Origin: Bacteroidales bacterium
GTDB taxonomy: Bacteria; Bacteroidota; Bacteroidia; Bacteroidales; F082
NCBI GenBank assembly: GCA_027022105.1
Contig: JALVZH010000018.1
Coordinates: forward strand, 2,020 to 46,367
Length of the DNA: 44,348 nt
Direction: 5' to 3'
In this document: piece after piece, positions 3,175 through 44,348 of the stretch
Position numbering within the stretch: position 1 is the first letter of the stretch
Layout: each line of letters starts with the position of its first letter
The notes under the pieces: model-generated
Database searches by the model: none
Seen by the model: only the letters and a program-made list of their open reading frames with translations
Told to the model about the DNA's origin: nothing
Made by a program: the position numbers and the translations under genes

Positions 3175-3223
3175 TATTGGTAAATTGTTTAGTAATAAAC
3201 TATTTAAAATAAATAATGAAATT

Positions 3224-3350
3224 AACATATTGCAAATCAGAAAATGAATTCCATTGTTCCCCTCCTTGGAGAGCTTGTCCCGACTTTACGTCGGGAGGTG
3301 TAGGGGTGGGTTTATTGAAAGATATTCACTTTTCTGATTTGCAATATGTT
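3224..3350. repeat. Intergenic hairpin element copy 1 (arms 3224-3249 / 3324-3350; core hairpin TCCCGACTTTACGTCGGGA)
   Basis: Left arm AACATATTGCAAATCAGAAAATGAAT; reverse complement of right arm AACATATTGCAAATCAGAAAAGTGAAT, i.e. fully complementary except one bulged base; core TTCCCCTCCTTGGAG..GGGGTGGGTTT shared with copies 2 and 3. Confidence 0.9.
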
Positions 3351-3382
3351 ATTATTTAATTAATACTTAACTAATTACAATT

Positions 3383-5725: not shown

Positions 5726-5754
5726 ATGAAAAAAAGATTTTTATTGGAAACGCA

Positions 5755-6320
5755 AACCGTTCCCCTCCGAGAAGGGGAATGGTTACCGTTAACCAAAGCA
5801 TAACTGTCAATTGGAAGAAAAAATGATTAAACCGATAAATATTTATATTGGAAATCAATGTTCCCCTCCTCGGAGAGTTTATCCCGACTTTACGTCGGGA
5901 GGTGCAGGGGTGGGTTATACATTCTTTTATTTTTGTAAAAAGCCTTTAAACAAGGATAATGGAAATCAACACCTTAAATAAGTAAATGAATATAAGGTTT
6001 TTAAATAAAACCCACCCCTTAATCCCCTCCAAGGAGGGGAATGGTTACCGTTAACCAAAGCATAACCGTTAATGGGAAAAAGAATGTTTAAATCGAAGAG
6101 GAAATTATATTGGAAAAATGAGTTCCCCTTCCGCCTTAGGCGGAGGTAGGGGTGGATAAAAAAATAGTTTATCAACAATTTTTTTAAAAAGAAACATAAC
6201 AAGACGATTAAAAAATCTGAAAATGAACAACATAATAGATCCCCCCTTAATCCTCCCGATTTTATCGGGACGAGCTCTCCGAGGAGGGGAGATCATTACC
6301 GTTAATCAAAGCATTATCGC
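5755..6320. repeat. Cluster of hairpin-rich intergenic repeat modules, both orientations
   Basis: GGGGAATGGTTACCGTTAACCAAAGCATAAC at 5774, 6036 and (variant) 6286; TTCCCCTCC..GGGGTGGGTT modules at ~5870-5920 and ~6122-6155; reverse-oriented CCCACCCCTTAATCCCCTCC at ~6010. Confidence 0.85.
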
Positions 6321-6322
6321 TC

Positions 6323-7252: not shown

Positions 7253-7320
7253 CGGGAATTGTGGAGAGATTTGATTGATTGCAACCACGGAAAAAAATGC
7301 TAAACCAGTATTTTCCCGCC
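7253..7320 (+). ncRNA. SAM-II (SAM_alpha)-like riboswitch upstream of metK
   Basis: GUGGAGAGAUUUGAUUGAUUGCAACCACGGAAAAAAAUGCUAAACCAG matches the SAM-II layout (P1 GUGG/CCAC; GAUUUG..UUGCA..CCAC; A-rich; GCUAAA); outer CGGGAA(7253-7258)/TTCCCG(7313-7318) stem; located directly 5' of metK. Confidence 0.75.
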
Positions 7321-7366: not shown

Positions 7367-8662
7367 ATGGCTTATTATTTCACGTCCGAATCCGTTTCGG
7401 AAGGTCATCCCGACAAAGTGGCTGACCAAATTTCAGATGCAGTTTTAGATGAAATGTTACGGCAGGATCCCGATTCGAAGGTTGCCTGCGAAACCATGGT
7501 TACCACCGGCCTTGCCGTTATTGCGGGAGAGGTAAAAACCAATGCCTGGGTCGATTTGCAATCGGTAACCCGGCGCACCATTGAGCGAATTGGCTATACC
7601 AAAGCCGAGTATCAGTTCGACAGCAAGTCCTGCGGTGTTATTTCAGCATTGCACGAGCAGTCGCCCGACATTAATCAGGGTGTTGAACGGGAAACCGAAG
7701 AAGAGCAGGGTGCCGGCGATCAGGGAATGATGTTCGGGTACGCCATTCGCGAAACAGAAAATCTGATGCCCCTTACGGTTGAAATTGCTCACGACCTCCT
7801 TTACGAACTGTCGAACATCCGCCGCGAGGGCAAGGTGATGACCTACCTTCGTCCTGATGCAAAATCGCAGGTAACACTGGAATACGAAGACGACAACAGG
7901 CCAAAGAGAATAGACACCATCGTTATTTCCACCCAGCATGATGATTTCGATACAGAAGAGAACATGCAGAAAAAGATTAAAGAAGACATTGAAAAGTATC
8001 TGATTCCACGCATCAGAAAAACTTACGACGCTTACCTTTTCGACCATAACTATAAACTGTTTGTGAATCCTACGGGCAAATTTGTTATCGGCGGTCCTCA
8101 TGGCGATACGGGATTGACGGGCAGGAAAATTATTGTGGACACATACGGCGGTCATGGTGCCCACGGCGGCGGAGCTTTCTCGGGAAAAGACTCTTCCAAG
8201 GTTGACCGTTCAGCCGCCTATGCAGCCCGCCATATTGCCAAAAATATGGTTGCCGCCGGTATTGCCGATAAAATTCTGGTGCAGGTGGCTTATGCCATTG
8301 GAGTAAGTCATCCCGTGGGATTTTACGTTAACACTTTCGGGACGGCAAAAGTAAAAGGTGAAAACGGAAACCTGCTGTCGGACGGCCAAATTGCAGAGAT
8401 AACCGAATCGGTTTTCGATATGAAACCGGCATCCATAGTAAAAAGATTCGGACTGAAAAACCCCATCTTTGAAAAAACCGCATCATACGGACATTTCGGA
8501 AGAGATGTTTATGAACAGGAGACAGAGGTTTATTACGAAGACGAAAACACAACCTTTAAAGAAAACCGTAACGGAACAAAGGTCTTTACCAAAAAGGTTA
8601 AGTTCTTCGGATGGGAAGAGTTGAATTATGTGGATGAAGTGAAAAAGGCTTTTAATTTGTAA
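7367..8662 (+). CDS. metK: S-adenosylmethionine synthase
   Basis: [70 protein letters not shown]. Confidence 0.98.
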
Positions 8663-9505: not shown

Positions 9506-9693
9506 ATCAGTATTTTTTATTTTTCAAATACAAAAACAATGCCGTTTTAATGCGGCAAAAATACACCATTTATTATAACATATGACAAGTAAAATGAAGA
9601 ATATGTTGCCTGAGGGGAATATGGGAATTCAATTTTATGCATCCAATGTTTTATACCCCGCCTGATTTATTACAACTTTTAACAACTCTGTCT

Positions 9694-18962: not shown

Positions 18963-19052
18963 TAAATCGAATGCATTACTTTTAGTTCCGGCGAAATAAC
19001 ATGATAATATGGCTTTTTCATTTTAATATGCCGTTTTAGTTTTACAAGGAGG

Positions 19053-19221
19053 TTGTTTAAAGTTAACGTGATGAAAATGAGTATAAAATATTGGAAACCA
19101 GAAAATGAATTCCATTATTCCCCTCCTTGGAGGGGTGCAGGGGTGGGTTTATTAAAAAAGATATTCACTTTTCTGGTTTCCAATATTTTATACTATAACC
19201 GTTTTATTAGACTTTAAACAA
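19053..19221. repeat. Intergenic hairpin element copy 2 (inner arms 19081-19110 / 19163-19193; outer TTGTTTAAAGT 19053-19063 / ACTTTAAACAA 19211-19221)
   Basis: GTATAAAATATTGGAAACCAGAAAATGAAT vs reverse complement GTATAAAATATTGGAAACCAGAAAAGTGAAT (single bulge); core CCCCTCCTTGGAGGGG. Confidence 0.93.
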
Positions 19222-19245
19222 GTTCAAGATTTAAAATTTATAAAA

Positions 19246-21339
19246 ATGATTAAAAAACTATTATTTACAACCATTACGTTTTTCGTAATTTCCACAATGG
19301 TTGCACAGGTAGGCATTAACTATGATGGATCCGTGCCTGCGTCACATTCAATTTTGGATGTCAAATCAGATTCAACAGGAATGATTATCCCCAGACTTAA
19401 CACAACACAAAGAGGTGTGTTGGCCTCAAAACTGGATAATTCACATAAGGGGATGTTAGTTTATGACAAAACCGGGAACATGATGTTTTTCTGGAACGGT
19501 TCTGAATTTGAAAATTTTGAATCTGGAGGAGTTACTATTCTCAGAGATGAAGATGGCGATACCTACATTGATACCGATAGCGGGGTTGATCCGGATTACA
19601 TAGCCGTCTCCACCGGAGGAACAATTTTTTGGATTTTCGACCATGGAAGACTGGCTACAAATAATACAGGTTCATCAGTATTTATTGGTGAAGGGGCAGG
19701 TGTTCATGACGATCTTACAGACAACAAGAATGTATTTATTGGACAAAATGCTGGAACGGCGAACAGTACAGGGTACGAAAATGCAGCAATTGGTTACGAA
19801 TCGTTTATAGCCAATACCAGTGGAGCAAACAATACCGCTTTTGGTAGTTCAAGCCTGAAAAGCAGCACCACTGCAAGTTTCAATACTGCTATAGGGTCAA
19901 GAGCACTTGAAAATACAACAACCAGTGCATACAATACAGCCCTTGGAACCTACTCCCTCAGGCATAATACAATTGGAGCAAAAAATGTTGCCCTTGGCTA
20001 TGCTTCAGGATTTTATACCGGTGGATCCAAAAATACAATTATTGGTTACAGAGCCGGAAGGGGTACATCTGCAAACAACATCAGCGGTAATGTTTTTATC
20101 GGTTACGAAGCCGGTTATTTTGAAACAGGTGACAACAAGTTGTATATTGAAAACTCCAATTCATCAAGTCCTCTTATTTATGGTGACTTTTCAAACAATG
20201 TTTTAGGATTTATGGGTGATGTTGGGATAGGAACAAAAAACCCTTTAAAAGACCTTCACATTATGGGAACTACTTCGCTTGCATCCTTACTTATTTCACC
20301 GAATACATCTGTCAATGGCAATTCTGAAATTTTGTTTACTGAAGATGATGATTTTACTTATGGAATGTTCATAAAATACAATGGGAACGATAACAGATTA
20401 TATTTTTACGGAAAGGCTGATGCTGATACCTCCGGGTCTCACCTTACCATAGAGAGGGATGGAAATGTTGGTATTGGAACAGATAATCCAACAGAGGCTT
20501 TTGAGGTTGTAACCACCTCCGATAGACGTACTGTATATTTCACTGGTGAAGGACAGGGAATCGATGATGCAACTGTTTATTCTGATAATACAAGTACAGG
20601 CTCCGGTATTGCCGGTTTTTTCCAAACTGCCGGAACAGACGCAACTTTCGTTCTAAAACAAAATGGGACAGGACACTTTCTGAAAGCTTTTGGTCCGGAC
20701 GGAGGAGATGAAGAGTGGAATGTTCGTAATGATGGAACCATGCAGTTTTATAACTCCGGTCACCACCGTACTATTGCGATTGAACCATCAGAATCAGGCA
20801 CCAACGATGCAGGACAAATTACCCTTTACGATGCTACAGGAACCATCCGTACCATAGAAATAGATGGTGATTATAATGGTAACGGCAGAATAACAACCAA
20901 CGAACTTCAAATAACCGGGGGCAGCGATTTGTCCGAATTTTTTGAGCTTTCCGATTATTCAGAAATTAAAAAAGGAATGGTGGTTTCAATTGATGAAAAT
21001 AATCCGGGACAACTGAAAATTACCACTGAAGCATACGATAAAAAAGTAGCCGGAATTGTCAGCGGTGCCAACAGCATTAAACCGGGTTTGATAATGAGTC
21101 AGAAAGGAACCATTGCCGATGGCGAACACCTTATCGCCCTTTCGGGCAGAGTGTATTGTATGGTTGATGCAACAAAGAATCCGGTTGAAATTGGTGATAT
21201 GCTAACTACCTCTTCAACTCCGGGCCATGCTATGAAAGTTGATGATTACCAACAAGCTCAGGGCTCTATTATTGGTAAGGCAATGACTTCGCTTAAAAAG
21301 GGAAAAGGTTTGGTTTTGGTTCTGGTCACTCTTCAATAA
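19246..21339 (+). CDS. Fiber-like secreted protein A1 (shared N-terminal module, short 17-aa repeats, Peptidase_G2-like/SDLSEFFEL C-terminal module)
   Basis: Signal peptide..QVGINYDGSVPASHSILDVKSDSTGMIIPRLNTTQR; NTAFGSSSLKSSTTASF-type units; VGIGTKNPLKDLHI; C-terminus SDLSEFFELSDYSEIKKGMVVSIDENNPGQLKITTEAYDKKVAGIVSGAN..GDMLTTSSTPGHAMKV..IIGKAMTSLKKGKGLVLVLVTLQ. Confidence 0.88.
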   Translation: MIKKLLFTTITFFVISTMVAQVGINYDGSVPASHSILDVKSDSTGMIIPRLNTTQRGVLASKLDNSHKGMLVYDKTGNMMFFWNGSEFENFESGGVTILRDEDGDTYIDTDSGVDPDYIAVSTGGTIFWIFDHGRLATNNTGSSVFIGEGAGVHDDLTDNKNVFIGQNAGTANSTGYENAAIGYESFIANTSGANNTAFGSSSLKSSTTASFNTAIGSRALENTTTSAYNTALGTYSLRHNTIGAKNVALGYASGFYTGGSKNTIIGYRAGRGTSANNISGNVFIGYEAGYFETGDNKLYIENSNSSSPLIYGDFSNNVLGFMGDVGIGTKNPLKDLHIMGTTSLASLLISPNTSVNGNSEILFTEDDDFTYGMFIKYNGNDNRLYFYGKADADTSGSHLTIERDGNVGIGTDNPTEAFEVVTTSDRRTVYFTGEGQGIDDATVYSDNTSTGSGIAGFFQTAGTDATFVLKQNGTGHFLKAFGPDGGDEEWNVRNDGTMQFYNSGHHRTIAIEPSESGTNDAGQITLYDATGTIRTIEIDGDYNGNGRITTNELQITGGSDLSEFFELSDYSEIKKGMVVSIDENNPGQLKITTEAYDKKVAGIVSGANSIKPGLIMSQKGTIADGEHLIALSGRVYCMVDATKNPVEIGDMLTTSSTPGHAMKVDDYQQAQGSIIGKAMTSLKKGKGLVLVLVTLQ

Positions 21340-21348
21340 CTATTGATT

Positions 21349-23865
21349 ATGAAAAAAGTTGTAATTCTGTTTGCAGCTCTTTTATTGATTTTTTCTTCTT
21401 TTCTTTTTTTCGGAAAAAACGAAAAAAAATATGGATACGGAGGGGAGGAAAAATACAATAAAGCAACACATGCTGCCGACTACCAGAAATTCCGCAGAAA
21501 ATCCAGAGAAGATAAAAACGGTCGTATTCCAATGGATGGATTGATAAAAGCAAAAGAGCATATTAAAACAATGACGGGTGTTTCGCGTGATGCAGGTCTT
21601 TGGGAATGGGAATGGCTTGGCCCGTCGAACATAGGTGGCCGTATCAGAACAATACTTCCCGACCCCAATGATCCGAATACTATCTGGATAGGTTCGGCAG
21701 GCGGAGGCATATGGAAAACTACTGACGGAGGAAATACATGGTCAACAGTTGGTGATTTTATTCCCACTTTAACCGTCAGTTCTCTTGTGTTTGACCCATC
21801 TTCAACCAATATTATTTATGCTGCCACCGGAGAGGGTTTTGGAAATTTTGATGCACTTCCGGGTGCCGGAATATTAAAAAGTACCGATGGAGGAGTAACA
21901 TGGTATCAGCTTGCGAGTACCAACATTGATGATTTTAAATATGTGAACCGTCTTGCGGCACATCCCGACCCCGATAGTGCCGGAGTACTTTATACTGTAA
22001 CAAGTGACAATGGCGTTTTTAAAACAGAAGACGGAGGTGATACCTGGGATTTTAAATTAAATACAAATTCAAAAGCCTATGATGTAAAAATTAACCCTCA
22101 TAATCCAAACCAGATTATTGTTGGCTGCGAAAATGCTGTTTATCTTTCAAATGATGATGGAAATAGCTGGCAAAGGCAAACAACGGGTTTTCAAAATAAA
22201 CTTCCTTTAAACCCGGGTAGATGTGAGGTTACTTTTTGCCCATCGAACCAAAGCAAAATATATGTTACAATGGAAAGAAACGGAGGTGAAATCTGGCGCT
22301 CAACCGATAGTGGCTCAACATGGACTAATATGAGTACAGGGACTAACTATATGAATGATCAGGGTTGGTATGATAACGCCATATGGGTAAGCCCTCAAAA
22401 CAGTAACTGGCTTGTAGTCGGAGGTATCGATCTTTGGCGAAGTACCGACGGCGGCGCAACTCTTACAAAAATCAGCGACTGGCACGATTATCATAATAAC
22501 AGTAGCGCTGATTCGCCTCATGCCGACCAACATGCAATTGTGAGTGCAGGCGATTACGATCAATCAACCAATCCGGTTGTTTATGTGGGTAATGACGGGG
22601 GAATTCAGAGAGCCGGTAATATATGGACGGTTACGGAAAATTCAGGATGGGATAATCTTGCAAATACCTCTCTGGGAATTACACAGTTTTTTGGTGGAGC
22701 AGCAGCCTCCGACGGAAGCATTATTGTAGGCGGAGCACAGGATAACGATAAACTCAGGTACAGAAGCAGTGGTGCCTGGAGCGGTTCGAACAACTGGTAT
22801 CAGGCACAGACAGGAGATGGTGGCTACGCGGCAATAAATTATAATGATTTAAACATTGTTTACGGCTCATATGTAAGACTTAGAATAATGAAGAGTACAG
22901 ACGGGGGCGATAGCTATTCCAATTCATACAATGGCATTGCCGACCAGGGGAATCCGTTAAGGGCTTTGTTTATATCTCCTTTTAGCATGGACCCCAATGA
23001 CCCGACCATACTTGTAGCAGGAGGTTCCAGGATATGGAGAACCACCAATTCTGCTAATAACTGGGGAGAAATTCGTGCAGAAATAGGCAGCTTTATTAAT
23101 AACAATGGTGACCTTGAATTTTTTAAATGTAGTGCCATTGATATAGACGACGGTAATTCGCAATTGATTTGGGTTGGTTATAACAACGGTCATGTTGCCT
23201 ATACAAACGATGCCGGAGCGTCATGGCAAAGAGTTGACGATAATGGTGTAGGAATTCCGGACAGATATATTACCGATATTGCCATTAACCCAAATACCCC
23301 TACACAGGTATTTGTTACTACCGGGGGATATAATCCTGATAATGTATGGTTTTCGGATGATGCAGGAGTAACATGGTACAACCGAAGCGGTAGTGCGCCA
23401 AACAACCTCCCTTCTATTCAGGTAAATACCATACGGTTTCATCCTTCAAACTCCAATTGGGTTTACGTTGGGACCGATATGGGTGTTTTTGCCTCACAAG
23501 ACAAGGGGAACAACTGGAGTGTTGTAACCAATACAAATGCAGGAAACGGTAATGAAGGCCCGGTAAATACCGAAGTATCAGAACTTTTTTGGCAGGGTGA
23601 TGAATTTCTTATAGCTGCAACTCACGGACGTGGAATGTACCGTACGGCATGCCCACCATACAAAATTTATGTTGATGCCAACGCTGCTCCGGGTGGCAAT
23701 GGCAGTCAGGCACATCCGTTTAAAACAGTGGCCGAAGCTGTGGCGGTTGCAGGTCCCGGAGCAACCATTTCAATAGAATCCGGAACTTACGACGAATCGG
23801 AAATCATTACTTTTCAGAATGAGGGATATATAATTGCTCCTAACGGCGGGGTGCTGATAAAATAA
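21349..23865 (+). CDS. BNR/sortilin-like beta-propeller protein B1 with C-terminal DUF1565-like segment
   Basis: Repeated STDGGxTW motifs, SNIGGRIRTILPDPNDPNTIWIGSAGGGIWKTTDGGNTW; C-terminus IYVDANAAPGGNGSQAHPFKTVAEAVAVAGPGATISIESGTYDESE. Confidence 0.9.
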   Translation: MKKVVILFAALLLIFSSFLFFGKNEKKYGYGGEEKYNKATHAADYQKFRRKSREDKNGRIPMDGLIKAKEHIKTMTGVSRDAGLWEWEWLGPSNIGGRIRTILPDPNDPNTIWIGSAGGGIWKTTDGGNTWSTVGDFIPTLTVSSLVFDPSSTNIIYAATGEGFGNFDALPGAGILKSTDGGVTWYQLASTNIDDFKYVNRLAAHPDPDSAGVLYTVTSDNGVFKTEDGGDTWDFKLNTNSKAYDVKINPHNPNQIIVGCENAVYLSNDDGNSWQRQTTGFQNKLPLNPGRCEVTFCPSNQSKIYVTMERNGGEIWRSTDSGSTWTNMSTGTNYMNDQGWYDNAIWVSPQNSNWLVVGGIDLWRSTDGGATLTKISDWHDYHNNSSADSPHADQHAIVSAGDYDQSTNPVVYVGNDGGIQRAGNIWTVTENSGWDNLANTSLGITQFFGGAAASDGSIIVGGAQDNDKLRYRSSGAWSGSNNWYQAQTGDGGYAAINYNDLNIVYGSYVRLRIMKSTDGGDSYSNSYNGIADQGNPLRALFISPFSMDPNDPTILVAGGSRIWRTTNSANNWGEIRAEIGSFINNNGDLEFFKCSAIDIDDGNSQLIWVGYNNGHVAYTNDAGASWQRVDDNGVGIPDRYITDIAINPNTPTQVFVTTGGYNPDNVWFSDDAGVTWYNRSGSAPNNLPSIQVNTIRFHPSNSNWVYVGTDMGVFASQDKGNNWSVVTNTNAGNGNEGPVNTEVSELFWQGDEFLIAATHGRGMYRTACPPYKIYVDANAAPGGNGSQAHPFKTVAEAVAVAGPGATISIESGTYDESEIITFQNEGYIIAPNGGVLIK

Positions 23866-23932
23866 AGGAACCGTTAATAGCAGGGGTTTTGTTTTCGAGC
23901 AGATATTTTGATTTGTCAATAATCAATGAAGC

Positions 23933-24097
23933 TGTTTAAAGTTAACGGGATGACAATGAGTATAAAATATTGAAAACCAGAAAATGAATTCCATTATTCC
24001 CCTCCTTGGAGGGGGAGGGGTGGGTTTATTAAAAAAAGATATTCACTTTTCTGGTTTTCAATATTTTATAATTTATCAAATGTTTAGACTTTAAACA
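23933..24097. repeat. Intergenic hairpin element copy 3 (inner arms 23961-23989 / 24041-24070; outer TGTTTAAAGT 23933-23942 / ACTTTAAACA 24088-24097)
   Basis: TATAAAATATTGAAAACCAGAAAATGAAT vs reverse complement TATAAAATATTGAAAACCAGAAAAGTGAAT (single bulge). Confidence 0.93.
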
Positions 24098-24114
24098 AGT
24101 TAAATGTATTTGCC

Positions 24115-24225
24115 CGTAATTTAAAAATCATAATTGTTCTGTTATCCCTTTTTCCGGCAATTACTTTTGACGGCTCGCCGGTATCGTTATACAGCCTGCA
24201 AAAGTTTACCGTGAAATCCCCTTAG
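24115..24225 (+). pseudogene. Degraded 5' remnant of a TPR gene paralogous to 28973-30382
   Basis: KIIIVLLSLFPAITFDGSPVSLYSLQKFTVKSP* aligns with KTIIVLLILFPGITFADSLVRLDSLQKQLNL of the intact TPR protein; no start codon; stop after ~33 codons. Confidence 0.8.
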
Positions 24226-24261
24226 TAAAAATTTGAAATAATTTTTATTTGTTTTGCCTTT

Positions 24262-24290
24262 TTTGTAATTTTGTCTTGTTGCATAACTTT
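24262..24290 (+). promoter_or_regulatory. Candidate Bacteroidota promoter for A2 (TTTG / TAACTTTG)
   Basis: TTTG at 24262-24265 and TAACTTTG (TAnnTTTG) at 24283-24290, ~70 nt before the A2 ATG. Confidence 0.45.
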
Positions 24291-24362
24291 GGTGTTTTTG
24301 TTATTTTAAAAGTTTTATGAAATCTGAAACCGGAATAAATTATAACCCAAAAAATAACAAAA

Positions 24363-26363
24363 ATGATTATGAAACATTTTTTTACGCTGGCAGTCCTGCT
24401 GCTTCTAACGGTAAATTCAGGCTTGGCGCAAGTAGGTATCAACTATAATGGAGAAGCGCCGGCATCACACACGATTCTTGATGTAAAATCGGACACTACC
24501 GGAATGTTGATTCCGCGTATGACAACAACCCAGAGAAATGCTCTTGCGGCAAAACTTGATTCTTCCCACGAGGGAATGGTAGTTTATGATAAAACGGAGG
24601 ATGTGCTCTACTTTTGGAACGGCTCGGAATTCGAAAAGATTGCTTCCGGTATTTTAAGCAGAATTAACGATGCGGATAACGACACCTGGGTTGAAACAGA
24701 AACGGGTACCGATTCCGATGATATCAACATTGGTAACAATGGGGTAAGGTATTGGCGATTTAAAGACGGGCGATTGGAATTTTTAAATACGGGAAATTCG
24801 GTTTTATTGGGATATAATGCAGGTAATAATGATGATTTCTCATCAAATCAAAATATATTTATTGGTTATAATGCCGGTTATAGTCTGTCTTCCGGCTATG
24901 GGAATGTTGCCATCGGAGTTAATTCATTATTTAACTCAAATTCACCGTATAATGTAGCTGTGGGTCATTCAGCACTTTATAATATTACATCAGGGGCGAA
25001 TAACATTGGTTTGGGATATCGTGCCGACTATTACAACCAAACCGGCAATAACAATGTAATTATCGGTTACAAAGCTGGATTTGTCGGCTCAACCCACAGC
25101 AAGTCGGGAAATGTTTTTATAGGAAATATGGCAGGATACAATGAGACGGGAAGCAATAAACTGTACATTGATAACTCAAGTACTTCAACCCCGCTTATTT
25201 ACGGTGATTTTTCGAGTAATGAATTAGGATTTATGGGTAATGTGGGAATCGGGACAAAAACCCCTGAAAAAAATCTTCACGTGGTTGGATCCGATACTTT
25301 AGGATCAATACTTATTTCACCTAATGAGAGTGGAAACGGCGATGATGCTGAATTGCTGTTTGGAGAGGATATAGATTACACCTATGGCATGTCAATAAAA
25401 TATGACGGAGGTGCAAATAAAATGTTTTTCTACGGGAAAAGCGGTAGTAGCACATTTGGCCCTCTTCTCACCATTGAAAGATCGGGAAATGTCGGAATCG
25501 GGACGGATGATCCATCGGAAGCTTTCGAGGTGGTAACAACGGGTGATGTCCGTACAGCCTATTTCACGGGTGAAGGAGAGGGAATAAGTGACGCAACGCT
25601 ATATTCCGAAAATACCAATTCAACTTCGGGTATAGCCGGTTTTTTTCTAACGGAGGGAGCCGATGCCACTATTGTATTAAAACAAAACGGAACAGGAAGT
25701 TTTATGAAAGCATTCGGACCTAACGGTGGAAATGAGGAATGGAAAGTTGATAACGACGGACGTATGACTTTTTATAATTCCGACCACAACAAAACCATTG
25801 TTATTGATCCGTCCGAAATTGGCACCAACGATGCGGGACAAATTACCCTTTACAATGCTGCGGGAACCAATGCTGTCATCGAAATAGACGGTAATTATAA
25901 CGGCGATGGCAGAATAACAACCAACGAACTGCAAATAACCGGTGGCAGCGACCTTTCCGAATTTTTTGAACTTACCGATTATTCCGAGATTAAAAAAGGC
26001 ATGGTGGTTTCCATTGATGAAAATAATCCCGGCCACCTGAAAATTTGTACCGAAGCGTACGATAAAAAAGTTGCCGGGGTTGTCAGCGGAGCAAACAGCA
26101 TCAGGCCCGGTTTAATCATGAGCCAAAAGGGTACCATTGCAGACGGTGAACACCTTATCGCTCTTTCGGGCAGGGTCTATTGTTTGGTAGATGCAACGGA
26201 AAGGCCGGTTGAAATTGGCGATATGCTTACCACTTCACCCGTCCCCGGATATGCCATGAAAGTTGACGATTACCAAAAAGCCCAAGGCGCTATTATCGGT
26301 AAAGCAATGACATCCCTTAAAAAAGGAAAAGGTTTGGTTTTGGTTCTGGTTACTCTTCAATAA
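24363..26363 (+). CDS. Fiber-like secreted protein A2 (paralogue of A1)
   Basis: Same N-terminal module (QVGINYNGEAPASHTILDVKSDTTGMLIPRMTTTQR), same C-terminal module as A1. Confidence 0.88.
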   Translation: MIMKHFFTLAVLLLLTVNSGLAQVGINYNGEAPASHTILDVKSDTTGMLIPRMTTTQRNALAAKLDSSHEGMVVYDKTEDVLYFWNGSEFEKIASGILSRINDADNDTWVETETGTDSDDINIGNNGVRYWRFKDGRLEFLNTGNSVLLGYNAGNNDDFSSNQNIFIGYNAGYSLSSGYGNVAIGVNSLFNSNSPYNVAVGHSALYNITSGANNIGLGYRADYYNQTGNNNVIIGYKAGFVGSTHSKSGNVFIGNMAGYNETGSNKLYIDNSSTSTPLIYGDFSSNELGFMGNVGIGTKTPEKNLHVVGSDTLGSILISPNESGNGDDAELLFGEDIDYTYGMSIKYDGGANKMFFYGKSGSSTFGPLLTIERSGNVGIGTDDPSEAFEVVTTGDVRTAYFTGEGEGISDATLYSENTNSTSGIAGFFLTEGADATIVLKQNGTGSFMKAFGPNGGNEEWKVDNDGRMTFYNSDHNKTIVIDPSEIGTNDAGQITLYNAAGTNAVIEIDGNYNGDGRITTNELQITGGSDLSEFFELTDYSEIKKGMVVSIDENNPGHLKICTEAYDKKVAGVVSGANSIRPGLIMSQKGTIADGEHLIALSGRVYCLVDATERPVEIGDMLTTSPVPGYAMKVDDYQKAQGAIIGKAMTSLKKGKGLVLVLVTLQ

Positions 26364-26372
26364 CTATTGATT

Positions 26373-28886
26373 ATGAAAAAAGTTGTAATTCTGTTTGCAG
26401 CTCTTTTATTGATTTTTTCTTCTCTGCTTTTTTTTGCAAAAAATGAAAAAAAATATGAATACGGAGAGGGGAAAAAATACGATAAGGCAACACATGCTGC
26501 CGACTATCTGAAATTCCGCAGAAAATCCAGAGAAGACAAAAACGGTCGTATTCCAATGGATGGATTGCTAAAAGCAAAAGAGCATATTAAAGCAATGATG
26601 GATGTTTCGCGTGATGCAGGACTTTGGGAATGGGAATGGCTTGGGCCGTCGAACATAGGAGGCCGTATCAGAACAATACTTCCCGACCCCAATAATCCGA
26701 ACACTATCTGGTTAGGTTCGGCAGGCGGAGGCATATGGAAAACTACCGACGGAGGAAGTTCATGGTCGTCAGTTGGCGATTTCATCCCGACACTATCCGT
26801 TAGTTCTCTCGTGTTCGACCCTTCTTCAACCAATATTATTTATGCTGCCACCGGCGAGGGTTTTGGAAATATTGATGCACTTCCGGGTGCCGGAATATTA
26901 AAAAGTACCGACGGAGGAGTAACATGGAATCAGCTTGCAAGCACCAATATTGATGATTTTAAATATGTGAACCGTCTTGCGGCACATCCCGATCCCGACA
27001 GCTCCGGAGTTCTTTATGCCGTAACAAGTGCCTGTAAGGTTTTTAAAACAGAAAACGGTGGAGATACATGGGATTTAAAATTAATTACCAATTCCGCAGC
27101 TTTTGATGTAAAAATTAACCCTAATGATCCGAGCAAAGTTATTGTCGGATGCCGGTATGATGTTTACCTTTCAACAGATTACGGAGAAACCTGGCACAGG
27201 CAAAATACCGGTGCAGCAAATAAACTTCCTCAATACGTAGGCAGGTGCGAGGCAACTTTCTGTCCGTCGAATCCAAGCAAAATATATGTGGCAATGTCAA
27301 GAGACAGTGGTGAAATCTGGCGCTCTACCGATAATGGAACAACATGGGCTCGTATGAACAGAGGGACTCATTATATGAGTAATCAGGGTTGGTATAATAA
27401 TGCCATTTGGGTAAACCCTCAAAATAGTAACTATCTTGTGGTCGGAGGTATTAACCTTTGGCGAAGTACCGACGGCGGTGCAACTCTTACAAAAATAAGC
27501 GACTGGCGTGATTTCCATAACAACAGCAGTGCCAATTCTGCTCATTCCGATCAACATGCAATTGTCAATGCAAGCAATTACGATCAGTCAACCAATCCCG
27601 TTGTTTATATTGGAAATGACGGGGGAATTCAGAAAGCCGGTAATATATGGACGGTTACGGAAAATTCGGGATGGGAAAACCTTGCAAATCCTTCTTTGGG
27701 AATTACGCAGTTTTACGGTGGAGCGGCAGCCCCCGACGGAAGCATTATTATAGGCGGAACACAGGATAATGATAAACTCAGGTACAGAAGCAGTGGAGCC
27801 TGGAGCGGCCCGGATAACTGGTTTCAGGCGATGACCGGTGATGGTGGTTACGCGGCTATAAATTATAACGATTTAAATATTCATTACGGTGAATATGTAT
27901 TTCTGACAATACTGAAAAGCACAGACGGGGGCGATAGTTATTCCGCTTCTTATAACGGCATTGCCGACCGAGGCAATCCGTTAAGGGCTTTATTTATAGC
28001 CCCTTTTAGTATGGATCCCAACGACCCGACCATACTTGTAGCAGGTGGTTCCAGAATATGGAGAACAACAAACTCTGCTGATACCTGGCAGGAAATTCGT
28101 GCAGAAATAGGCAGTTTTATTCATAATAACGACACCATATATTATAAATGTAGTGCCATTGATATAGATGACGGTAATTCGCAATTGATTTGGGTTGGTT
28201 ATACCAACGGTCATGTTGCATATACCGATGATGCAGGATCAACATGGCACAGGGTAGATAATAACGGAATTGGTATTCCGGACAGGTATATTACCGATAT
28301 AGCCATTAACCCAAATAATCCTTCGCAAGTGTTTGTTACCACGGGTGGATATAATGCAGATAATGTGTGGTTTTCGGATGATGCAGGGGTAACATGGAAC
28401 AACCGAAGTGGCAATGCACCAAACAACCTCCCTTCTATTCAGGTAAATACCGTACGGTTTCATCCTTCAAACTCCAATTGGGTTTATATTGGAACCGACA
28501 TGGGTGTTTTTGCGTCACAAGACCAGGGGCAAACCTGGAGTGTAGTAACCAATACCAATGCTGCAAACGGTAATGAAGGCCCGGCAAACACAGAAGTATC
28601 GGAACTTTTCTGGCAGGGTGACGAATTCCTTATTGCTGCAACTCACGGACGGGGAATGTTTCGGACGGCAGGCCCCCCACTCATAATTTATGTTGATGCC
28701 AATGCCGCACCGGGTGGTAACGGCAGTCAGGCACACCCGTTTAAAACAGTGGCCGAAGCTGTGGCGGTTGCAGGTCCCGGAGCAACCATTTCAATAGAAT
28801 CCGGAACATACAACGAATCGGAAATCATCACCTTTCAGAATGAGGGATATATTATTGTTACCAATGGTAGCGTAGTTATAGAATAG
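26373..28886 (+). CDS. BNR/sortilin-like beta-propeller protein B2 (paralogue of B1)
   Basis: Near-colinear, highly similar protein to B1 throughout. Confidence 0.9.
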   Translation: MKKVVILFAALLLIFSSLLFFAKNEKKYEYGEGKKYDKATHAADYLKFRRKSREDKNGRIPMDGLLKAKEHIKAMMDVSRDAGLWEWEWLGPSNIGGRIRTILPDPNNPNTIWLGSAGGGIWKTTDGGSSWSSVGDFIPTLSVSSLVFDPSSTNIIYAATGEGFGNIDALPGAGILKSTDGGVTWNQLASTNIDDFKYVNRLAAHPDPDSSGVLYAVTSACKVFKTENGGDTWDLKLITNSAAFDVKINPNDPSKVIVGCRYDVYLSTDYGETWHRQNTGAANKLPQYVGRCEATFCPSNPSKIYVAMSRDSGEIWRSTDNGTTWARMNRGTHYMSNQGWYNNAIWVNPQNSNYLVVGGINLWRSTDGGATLTKISDWRDFHNNSSANSAHSDQHAIVNASNYDQSTNPVVYIGNDGGIQKAGNIWTVTENSGWENLANPSLGITQFYGGAAAPDGSIIIGGTQDNDKLRYRSSGAWSGPDNWFQAMTGDGGYAAINYNDLNIHYGEYVFLTILKSTDGGDSYSASYNGIADRGNPLRALFIAPFSMDPNDPTILVAGGSRIWRTTNSADTWQEIRAEIGSFIHNNDTIYYKCSAIDIDDGNSQLIWVGYTNGHVAYTDDAGSTWHRVDNNGIGIPDRYITDIAINPNNPSQVFVTTGGYNADNVWFSDDAGVTWNNRSGNAPNNLPSIQVNTVRFHPSNSNWVYIGTDMGVFASQDQGQTWSVVTNTNAANGNEGPANTEVSELFWQGDEFLIAATHGRGMFRTAGPPLIIYVDANAAPGGNGSQAHPFKTVAEAVAVAGPGATISIESGTYNESEIITFQNEGYIIVTNGSVVIE

Positions 28887-42064: not shown

Positions 42065-42955
42065 TTATTTCACATTTATGTTACGAATAGCATTCATAAC
42101 ATATTTTTCGTTGGAACGCGACACAGGCACCTTAACGGTCTCATCCTCTAAAATTAATGAGATATTTCTGGCATTACCGGAAGCGCCTTTCACTTTGTTT
42201 ATGTTTACAATGTACGAGCGATGACATCTTATAAAACAGGGAAAATTTTGTAATACATTTTCTACATTCTTCATAGCGACCCTTGAAATTTTGTATGAAT
42301 AGCCGTTGTTCCCCTTCAGGTAAAATGAAGAATAGTTTCCATCGGCTTTAACAAACAATATATTATCAGTTTCCGTTTCAAAGCTGTCCGATTGCACCTG
42401 CGATTCGATTCTGATTTTGTCCGTGGTCCTGCTGCCGGCATTTTTATTGAATTTTTCCTTAATTAGTGCTGTGGTTTTTTCAGCCGTTTTTCTGTTTTCT
42501 TTCAACAATTTGCTTTCCGAATATATCAGATATCCAACTACAGGGAAAATGCCAATGGAAAGCGTATATAAAAGCACCGTTACAATATCAGGTTGAGGAT
42601 CGGTTGTAACACCGGCTATTTTGATATAATAATAATTCGCTATTGAAATCAAAACTATATTCAGTATTGAAACCGCTAAGGTATGTTTCAGTTTCCACTG
42701 ATTTTTATCGAGAAGTTTTCCGGGAATAAAGTGAATTACAAGTGACAGCAATATCATTACCACGAAAGTAACGATTCCGAAACCGGCAATATAAAAGAAA
42801 GGGATTTGTTCTCCTTCATAAACTTTAAAAGGTCTGAAAACAAGCAGAAATATGAAAATAAAAAACCCGAACAGGGCAGGCAATCCGAAAATATTTTCAA
42901 CAGAGTCGAAAGGCGGATAGGGTTTGTTCCAATATTTCAGAATTTTTTGAAGCAT
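42065..42955 (-). CDS. Membrane-anchored LytTR-type DNA-binding response regulator
   Basis: Four hydrophobic TM segments then LytTR domain: ILFVKADGNYSSFYLKGNNGYSYKISRVAMKNVENVLQNFPCFIRCHRSYIVNINKVKG. Confidence 0.93.
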   Translation of the reverse strand: MLQKILKYWNKPYPPFDSVENIFGLPALFGFFIFIFLLVFRPFKVYEGEQIPFFYIAGFGIVTFVVMILLSLVIHFIPGKLLDKNQWKLKHTLAVSILNIVLISIANYYYIKIAGVTTDPQPDIVTVLLYTLSIGIFPVVGYLIYSESKLLKENRKTAEKTTALIKEKFNKNAGSRTTDKIRIESQVQSDSFETETDNILFVKADGNYSSFYLKGNNGYSYKISRVAMKNVENVLQNFPCFIRCHRSYIVNINKVKGASGNARNISLILEDETVKVPVSRSNEKYVMNAIRNINVK

Positions 42956-42973
42956 TTAAAATTATTTCTGCTA

Positions 42974-43013
42974 AATATTTTATACTCAATGTAACCACGT
43001 TAACTTTAAACAA
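42974..43013 (-). repeat. Half copy of the hairpin element (left end only), overlapping the glyS stop codon
   Basis: Reverse complement GTTGTTTAAAGTTAACGTGGTTACATTGAGTATAAAATATT matches copy 2 left end GTTGTTTAAAGTTAACGTGATGAAAATGAGTATAAAATATT. Confidence 0.85.
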
Positions 43014-44348
43014 CTTTATTTTTAACCTTTAATCTGTTTCTTACAATTTCATTGATTTTTTCAATGGGAATGCGTTCCTGCTGCATGGTATCGCGTTCGC
43101 GGATGGTAACCGTGTTGTTTTGCAGGGTTTCGTGGTCAACGGTTACGCAATAAGGTGTTCCTATGGCATCGTGACGGCGGTACCGTTTGCCTATGGTGTC
43201 TTTCTCTTCGTAAAAGCACATGAAATCCTCTTTCAGTCCGTCCATAATTTCCCGTGCTTTTTCGGGCAGTCCGTCTTTTTTGGTCAGAGGGAATACGGCC
43301 ACTTTGTAGGGTGCAAGGAAGGGCGGAAGTTTCATTACCACACGTTGCGAGCCGTCGTCCAGTTTCTCTTCGGTGTAGGCATGGCTCAGCATGGCAAGGA
43401 ACATCCTGTCGAGGCCGATGGAGGTTTCTACCACATACGGTACGTAGCTTTCGTTTACTTCCGAATCGAAATAGCGCAGTTTTTTGCCTGAGAATTTTTC
43501 GTGAGCGCTCAGGTCGAAATCGGTACGCGAATGAATGCCTTCCAACTCTTTAAATCCCATGGGAAATTCGAACTCGATGTCGGCGGCGGCATTGGCATAA
43601 TGCGCCAGCTTGTCGTGGTCGTGAAAACGGAACTTGGAAGCGGGAATGCCTGTGGAAAGGTGCCATTTCATGCGTTCCTCTTTCCAATAGTTGTACCATT
43701 CCATTTCGGTTCCGGGGCGCACAAAGAACTGCATTTCCATCTGTTCGAATTCGCGCATGCGGAAGATAAACTGCCGTGCCACAATTTCGTTGCGGAATGC
43801 TTTTCCGGTTTGGGCAATACCAAAGGGAATTTTCATCCTTCCCGTTTTCTGAACATTGAGGTAGTTGACAAAAATACCCTGTGCCGTTTCGGGGCGGAGA
43901 TAAATTTCGGTAGCTCCCTCGGCGGTGGAACCCATTTGTGTTGAAAACATCAGGTTGAACTGCCGTACTTCCGTCCAGTTTTTCGAACCGGTAAGGGGGT
44001 CTGCTATTTCAAGGTCTTCGATAAGCTGTTTTATGGCAGCCATGTCGTTGTTGTCCATGGCCGGATAGAGCCTGTTTTTGATGTCCTCAATCTTTTTTGT
44101 GTTGGCCAATACCCGCGGGTTGGTATCGCGGAATTGCTGCTCGTCAAAGGCATCGCCAAACCGTTTTTTTGCTTTGGTTATCTCTTTGTTTATCTTGCCT
44201 TCAATTTTGGCAATGTAATCTTCCACCAACACGTCGGCACGGTATCTTTTTTTGGAATCCTTGTTGTCAATCAAAGGGTCGTTAAAAGCATCCACATGTC
44301 CCGAAGCTTTCCAAACCGTGGGATGCATAAATATTGCCGCGTCAATAC
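43006..44348 (-). CDS. glyS: Glycine--tRNA ligase, N-terminus truncated by window edge
   Basis: Frame stays open to the window end (..DAAIFMHPTVWKASGHVDAFNDPLIDNK); class II motifs IYLRPETAQGIFVNYLNV, QTGKAFRNEI, REFEQMEMQFFV. Eukaryote/archaea-like single-subunit type (glyQS/glyS naming varies). Confidence 0.96.
   Translation of the reverse strand, partial: IDAAIFMHPTVWKASGHVDAFNDPLIDNKDSKKRYRADVLVEDYIAKIEGKINKEITKAKKRFGDAFDEQQFRDTNPRVLANTKKIEDIKNRLYPAMDNNDMAAIKQLIEDLEIADPLTGSKNWTEVRQFNLMFSTQMGSTAEGATEIYLRPETAQGIFVNYLNVQKTGRMKIPFGIAQTGKAFRNEIVARQFIFRMREFEQMEMQFFVRPGTEMEWYNYWKEERMKWHLSTGIPASKFRFHDHDKLAHYANAAADIEFEFPMGFKELEGIHSRTDFDLSAHEKFSGKKLRYFDSEVNESYVPYVVETSIGLDRMFLAMLSHAYTEEKLDDGSQRVVMKLPPFLAPYKVAVFPLTKKDGLPEKAREIMDGLKEDFMCFYEEKDTIGKRYRRHDAIGTPYCVTVDHETLQNNTVTIRERDTMQQERIPIEKINEIVRNRLKVKNKVV

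Follow-up and report, generated by a model that had tools for sequence, protein, structure and literature searches.

MITEs of the IS5 family (NF033580) are short, non-coding, intergenic elements of high copy number, with terminal repeats identical to those of a parent insertion sequence and a short target duplication of fixed length. REP and REPIN sequences with their RAYT (TnpA-REP) genes are short, GC-rich, palindromic and dispersed, occur as inverted doublets, and flank a small gene in inverted orientation (PMC3733652, PMC6006769, PMC3116915). For template switching between inverted repeats, the published mark is arm homogenisation together with spacer inversion (PMC8604942), and the process has been put forward as a way in which RNA stems arise and are kept (PMC8794818). 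The element described here resembles each of these systems in part.

The window analysed, a whole stretch of 44,348 nt, is contig C18 of a 3.88-Mb draft genome of Bacteroidales type that is 95% complete and comprises 370 contigs. The original prediction had placed copies of a dispersed hairpin near positions 3224, 19081 and 23961, and all three proved real, being the best three matches of a covariance model in the window at 19077-19200 (139.7 bits), 23956-24078 (126.9 bits) and 3216-3361 (115.7 bits). They belong to a short, non-coding mobile element that has about 150 copies in this genome; genome-wide, the core pattern was matched 154 times (86 on one strand and 68 on the other), and a reversed-pattern control gave 0 matches. 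About 110 copies were extracted from the genome for analysis, and because they were gathered with the core sequence as the query, the conservation of the core among them is partly ascertainment. The family consists of three nested layers, namely an IS5-type MITE, a hairpin of 25-30 bp inside it, and a REP-like core in the loop of the hairpin. Taken jointly, the three layers are probably best explained as a composite miniature transposon. The features of the family in the window are given below, with their basis in brackets where one is noted.

3216..3361, plus strand: copy 1, with hairpin and core but no recognisable IS5-type ends (covariance model)
5740..6322, no strand: intergenic run of four or more cores, alternating in orientation (covariance model, sequence)
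9564..9690, minus strand: decayed element, left end and arm recognisable, arms no longer paired
19046..19048, no strand: target-site duplication AAG, left of copy 2 (sequence; 3-bp duplications in 59 of 80 copies)
19049..19225, plus strand: copy 2, complete 177-bp MITE with ends GAGGTTGTTTAAAG and CTTTAAACAAGTTC (sequence)
19080..19110, plus strand: left hairpin arm of copy 2 (fold and covariation)
19120..19149, plus strand: loop of copy 2 with the REP-like core CCCCTCCTTGGAGGGG-TGC-AGGGGTGGGT (sequence; cross-phylum matches)
19163..19194, plus strand: right hairpin arm of copy 2 with a single bulged C (fold and alignment)
19226..19228, no strand: target-site duplication AAG, right of copy 2 (sequence)
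23925..23927, no strand: target-site duplication AAT, left of copy 3 (sequence)
23928..24102, plus strand: copy 3, complete 175-bp MITE (sequence, ends, covariance model)
24103..24105, no strand: target-site duplication AAT, right of copy 3 (sequence)
42955..43017, minus strand: fragment consisting of a truncated left end and the left arm, where the gene at 43006-44328 ends

Copy 1 is a long-loop variant with a nested GTCCCGACTTTACGTCGGGA palindrome. A nested palindrome GAGCTTGTCCCGACTTTACGTCGGGAGG stands in place of the short loop at 3268-3303 of the window and in many long-loop copies, and is perhaps another insertion layer. Copies 2 and 3 lie upstream of the two halves of a tandem duplication at 19246-28886, in which the duplicated unit comprises two genes (proteins of ~670-700 aa and 840 aa). 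The window also holds a SAM-II riboswitch (7255-7313, 69 bits) upstream of a metK-like gene at 7367.

The outer layer was characterised from 80 copies with recognisable ends in this genome and its relatives. These are 171-227 bp long (~175 bp with a short loop and 200 bp with a long loop), are bounded by GAA[G/C]TTGTTTAAAG and its inverse, and in 59 cases have identical 3-bp sequences on the left and right, compared with 11.4 expected by chance when the flanks of different copies are paired. The outer TTGTTTAAAGT/ACTTTAAACAA repeats, which the original prediction had read as a second nested inverted repeat of copies 2 and 3, do form such a repeat, but they are the ends of a transposable element, and copy 1 is without them. 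Searching relatives for a transposase turned up a DDE gene with its stop codon directly against the same 14-bp end. The terminal inverted repeats GAAGTTGTTTAAAG / CTTTAAACAACTTC are identical at 14 of 14 positions to those of an insertion sequence in the same-genus genome G004. The intact parent there (L185) is 924 bp long, with 14-bp ends identical to those of the MITE and a 3-bp duplication of its own, and starts with the same 19 nt as the MITE, GAAGTTGTTTAAAGTTAAC. Its transposase scored 128 bits against the IS5-family model NCBIfam NF033580 (cut-off 110) and also matched PF13340 and PF01609; a MITE copy with these ends is present in the same genome (L215). In the own genome, one copy on contig C76 (L033:1257-1433) interrupts a Y1-transposase gene, separating NDSH from VNRVREY, and has the duplication ATG. 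The outer layer is almost certainly a MITE of an IS5-family insertion sequence, and, viewed as a mobile element, the whole belongs to a known kind, the IS5-type MITEs, but has an uncommon composite structure.

An IS5 transposase that recognises the GAAGTTGTTTAAAG ends presumably moves the MITE in trans, duplicating 3 bp of the target. The suggestion of a hairpin or foldback mobile unit is borne out for a dispersed, mobile hairpin but not for mobility arising from the hairpin itself, given the IS5-type ends, the 3-bp duplications and the intact parent in a sister species. An intact IS5 parent was not found in the own draft genome, which holds two decayed remnants only (C335 and C104); both are internally deleted and frame-broken, so that present mobility is uncertain, and this lineage may no longer have an active transposase. 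Two other readings were rejected. An integron site of the attC type, prompted by the bulge and the GTTTAAA ends, does not fit the orientation of the ends, and the target duplications argue against it. For RAYT, none of 33 Y1_Tnp loci was flanked by the hairpin, and the sole adjacent gene (on C76) is the one interrupted by a copy.

Within these ends, the predicted fold of copy 2 has an energy of -71 kcal/mol (z = -7.9 relative to shuffled sequences), and the site of this copy matched no Rfam family. Three arm columns that differ among the three window copies (C-G/A-T; C-G/G-C/A-T; T-A/C-G) are complementary in every copy, confirming the compensated differences first noticed there. The bulged base, a C on the plus strand of the right arm, is likewise common to these three, but its claimed conservation fails, because many other copies lack it or have T instead. 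Among 52 diverse copies drawn from the own genome and its relatives, both-side changes occur at 24 of 29 arm pairs, all four pair types are seen at one arm position, and the covariation score is 0.268, against 0.06-0.10 when the pairing is slid by 1-3 columns. Since kinship among copies can mimic covariation, an R-scape-like test with a tree-based null was used, in which Fitch-counted substitutions were re-dealt on the tree of the copies. The covariation that had been predicted to exceed the phylogenetic background did so: the seven best column pairs of ~7,000 were all arm pairs, three of them at E<=0.05, indicating that the pairing is really maintained and that the significant covariation expected of a structured RNA is present.

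The hairpin also occurs outside the IS5-type ends. In this genome, 12 copies, including copy 1, show no trace of IS5 ends and keep the core, and all but a few of them have paired arms; they were found via the core, and the arms played no part in the search. Six copies lie inside a different, larger repeat. A second dispersed repeat (GTAGTCCTCGCCGGCAGGGCTGTTCGGCTATAATG...) bears the same hairpin with other arms (L054, L068, L071, L093, L101 and L108). A covariance search recovered the hairpin in 26 of 100 relatives, all of the same family, and in other genera of the family it is without IS5 ends and often forms inverted pairs, spaced 30-40 nt and enclosed by GTWACTAATCAGT ends. These other genera hold a second composite element, which carries two hairpin types with the arms AAAATCAGCAAATAAAT and AATTCAAAAAATGAAT, as inverted pairs inside GTWACTAATCAGT ends, at the following sites.

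L217:1338-1651: second composite element
L243:205-519: second composite element
L236:68-334: second composite element

In a further genome (G034; L159, L161 and L163), the core is duplicated in tandem within one hairpin, and can therefore multiply on its own. A comparison of loci by nadD synteny showed no empty site for copy 1, because the right-hand gene is not syntenic in the other loci compared.

The innermost layer has the widest distribution, with exact matches to the loop core CCCCTCCnnGGAGGGGnnnAGGGGTGGGT in records of Verrucomicrobia, Nitrospirae, Planctomycetes, Cyanobacteria, Brocadia and Bacteroidetes. In Verrucomicrobia-type records (L287, L289, L290, L292 and others), the core forms inverted doublets ~30 nt apart, in the manner of REPINs. 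Both inverted doublets and a high dispersed copy number, as in REP/RAYT systems, are found for the core; the REP-type tetranucleotide GT[AG]G is absent from the 5' foot of the stem, the core having GGGGTGGGT on the 3' side only. The repeated spacer GGTTACCGTTAACCAAAGCATAACCGTTAAT of the array at 5740-6322 also flanks the core beside the DUF559 gene of this genome (L388). That gene, the only DUF559 gene detected in the own genome (C220, L388:1360-2080), sits between two inverted copies of the core, which are without long hairpin arms. On either side of it there is also a direct repeat of ~28 nt (CATTTAACGGTTATGTTTTGGTTAACGG), an arrangement like that of a small mobile cassette.

DUF559 was present in 18 of 22 genomes, all chosen for carrying the core. 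Where both flanks were available, a core-like palindrome lay within 600 bp of the DUF559 gene in 33 of 40 loci and on both sides in 22 of 40, and the core density near the gene was 1.25-1.73/kb, compared with 0-0.16/kb farther off in the same loci and 0.009/kb in control transposase loci. The canonical core is missing at several DUF559 loci of the family. In an independent sample of 12 DUF559 loci from a plasmid collection, taken regardless of the core, the gene was enclosed in seven by long inverted repeats rich in GC, of a different sequence at each locus; such repeats flanked 1 of 26 nadD loci and 12 of 20 Y1-transposase loci, the latter serving as positive control. DUF559 genes with inverted GC-rich repeats were seen inside the paaD-paaZ and NAD(P) transhydrogenase (pnt) operons (Deinococcus, Sphingomonas; L466, L469), as expected of a mobile cassette.

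Given this observed association, it is reasonably likely that the core belongs to a DUF559-associated repeat class, in which the nuclease would have a putative role. More tentatively, and with a probability that we place a little short of even from the sequence patterns, these cross-phylum REP-like palindromes may have a DUF559 nuclease as their cognate enzyme, instead of an HUH RAYT transposase. Under the same tentative reading, each DUF559 gene would be bracketed by its own palindrome in inverted copies. The palindrome would multiply genome-wide and could be captured and amplified by further mobile elements, of which this IS5 MITE would be one. On the first and likelier of these two readings, the core represents a cross-phylum class of palindromes that stand as inverted pairs around DUF559 (Vsr-like, PD-(D/E)XK-type) nuclease genes, much as REPs do around RAYT genes, and the MITE probably acquired this REP-like core and then amplified it.

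The maintenance of arm pairing had been framed as a choice between selection and arm-to-arm copying, and the evidence leans to copying, as judged by transversion doubles and inverted loops, with selection keeping some support. Shared descent only, in which a few perfect-armed subfamilies were amplified with nothing keeping the arms paired, is highly improbable: two large subfamilies (GGAAACC and GAAAACC) explain much of the variation, but the arm pairs lead under the tree-based null, one position carries all four pair types, private doubles occur in seven single copies (L020, L038, L039, L075, L090, L104 and L121), and pairing is kept with different arms in related genera. Copying of the arms from the target flanks at insertion is ruled out, the arms being homologous across copies and genera. 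Among 96 ungapped copies of the own genome, 72 complementary double and 30 single-sided deviations were counted, with ~0.04 doubles expected by chance; the 72 doubles are inflated because several come from length-shifted arms (L035, L116, L097), and a stricter count, limited to copies with exactly one deviating pair, gave 7 doubles and 19 singles. Six of these 7 isolated doubles are transversions, for which no G-U (wobble) intermediate is possible. Furthermore, the core is inverted relative to the asymmetric outer ends in at least three copies, and changes in arm length are mirrored in the opposite arm in some copies. Template switching is preferred because doubles are in excess and mostly transversions, there is no clear G-U bias, and some loops are inverted; from this pattern of changes, we regard it with moderate confidence as the principal reason why the arms match. 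A polymerase that stalls in the extruded hairpin would switch template and copy one arm onto the other, which would turn single mutations into matched doubles and at times invert the loop. Such arm-to-arm correction would be leaky, because decayed copies with unpaired arms exist (9564-9690 in the window).

Two forms of selection are less probable as the cause. The element could be read through from an upstream gene, so that the hairpin would serve as an mRNA end stabiliser, an RNase III site or an attenuator, and the arm changes would be ordinary compensatory mutations; on the sequence data, this is unlikely. The strong fold of copy 2, the covariation beyond phylogeny and the location of 96 of 97 copies outside long ORFs are consistent with such a role, and in tandem gene contexts the hairpin runs in the same direction as the genes in 42 cases and in the opposite direction in 20, although an orientation bias of this kind can come from insertion or purging without selection for RNA. 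Single-sided changes in the own copies show a mild excess of G-T/T-G over A-C/C-A (14 vs 7), as selection on RNA would predict, whereas in the diverse alignment G-T and A-C are equal at 20 and 20, and the predominance of transversions among isolated doubles, the loop inversions and the lack of an Rfam match at the copy 2 site also speak against selection on RNA. Selection could otherwise act via transposition, if the folded single strand were the substrate of a mobilising enzyme (a DUF559 nuclease or an HUH/RAYT transposase). The 12 own-genome copies with hairpin and core but no IS5 ends, the inverted hairpin pairs inside the different GTWACTAATCAGT ends in other genera, and the cores around DUF559 genes are in keeping with such a substrate; nevertheless, the cores flanking DUF559 in the own genome are without long arms, the hairpin flanks 0 of 33 Y1 transposase loci, and no target duplication or boundary is definable for the hairpin alone, so that we consider this quite improbable.

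With a single hairpin repeated ~150 times in the same genome, the family amounts to a natural replicate experiment on paired-arm evolution, and it cautions against taking covariation by itself as proof of a functional RNA, since template switching can give the same signal. The core suggests what the widespread, unexplained DUF559 proteins may do, namely act as partners of dispersed, GC-rich palindromes in many phyla. This DUF559 link is the most novel part, as the open-access literature searched contained no paper on the core sequence and none joining DUF559 and such repeats.

Compared with described systems, the element shares with IS5-family MITEs all of the traits listed at the outset; it differs from them in its long covarying hairpin and in a REP-like core also found outside these ends, and its parent is intact only in a sister species. 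The Correia repeat enclosed elements of Neisseria are also small inverted-repeat mobile elements with a conserved core, but their ends, core and hosts differ (PMC2649163). The core is like REP/REPIN sequences in its short, GC-rich, palindromic and dispersed nature, in its inverted doublets in several genomes and in flanking a small gene in inverted orientation, whereas the gene flanked here is DUF559, a predicted PD-(D/E)XK nuclease, and not an HUH tyrosine transposase. With template-switch (quasipalindrome) correction (PMC8794818, PMC8604942), the hairpin has in common arm homogenisation, matched multi-base changes and spacer inversion, and the difference is that here these are read from sequence, in natural replicates provided by ~150 copies of one element.
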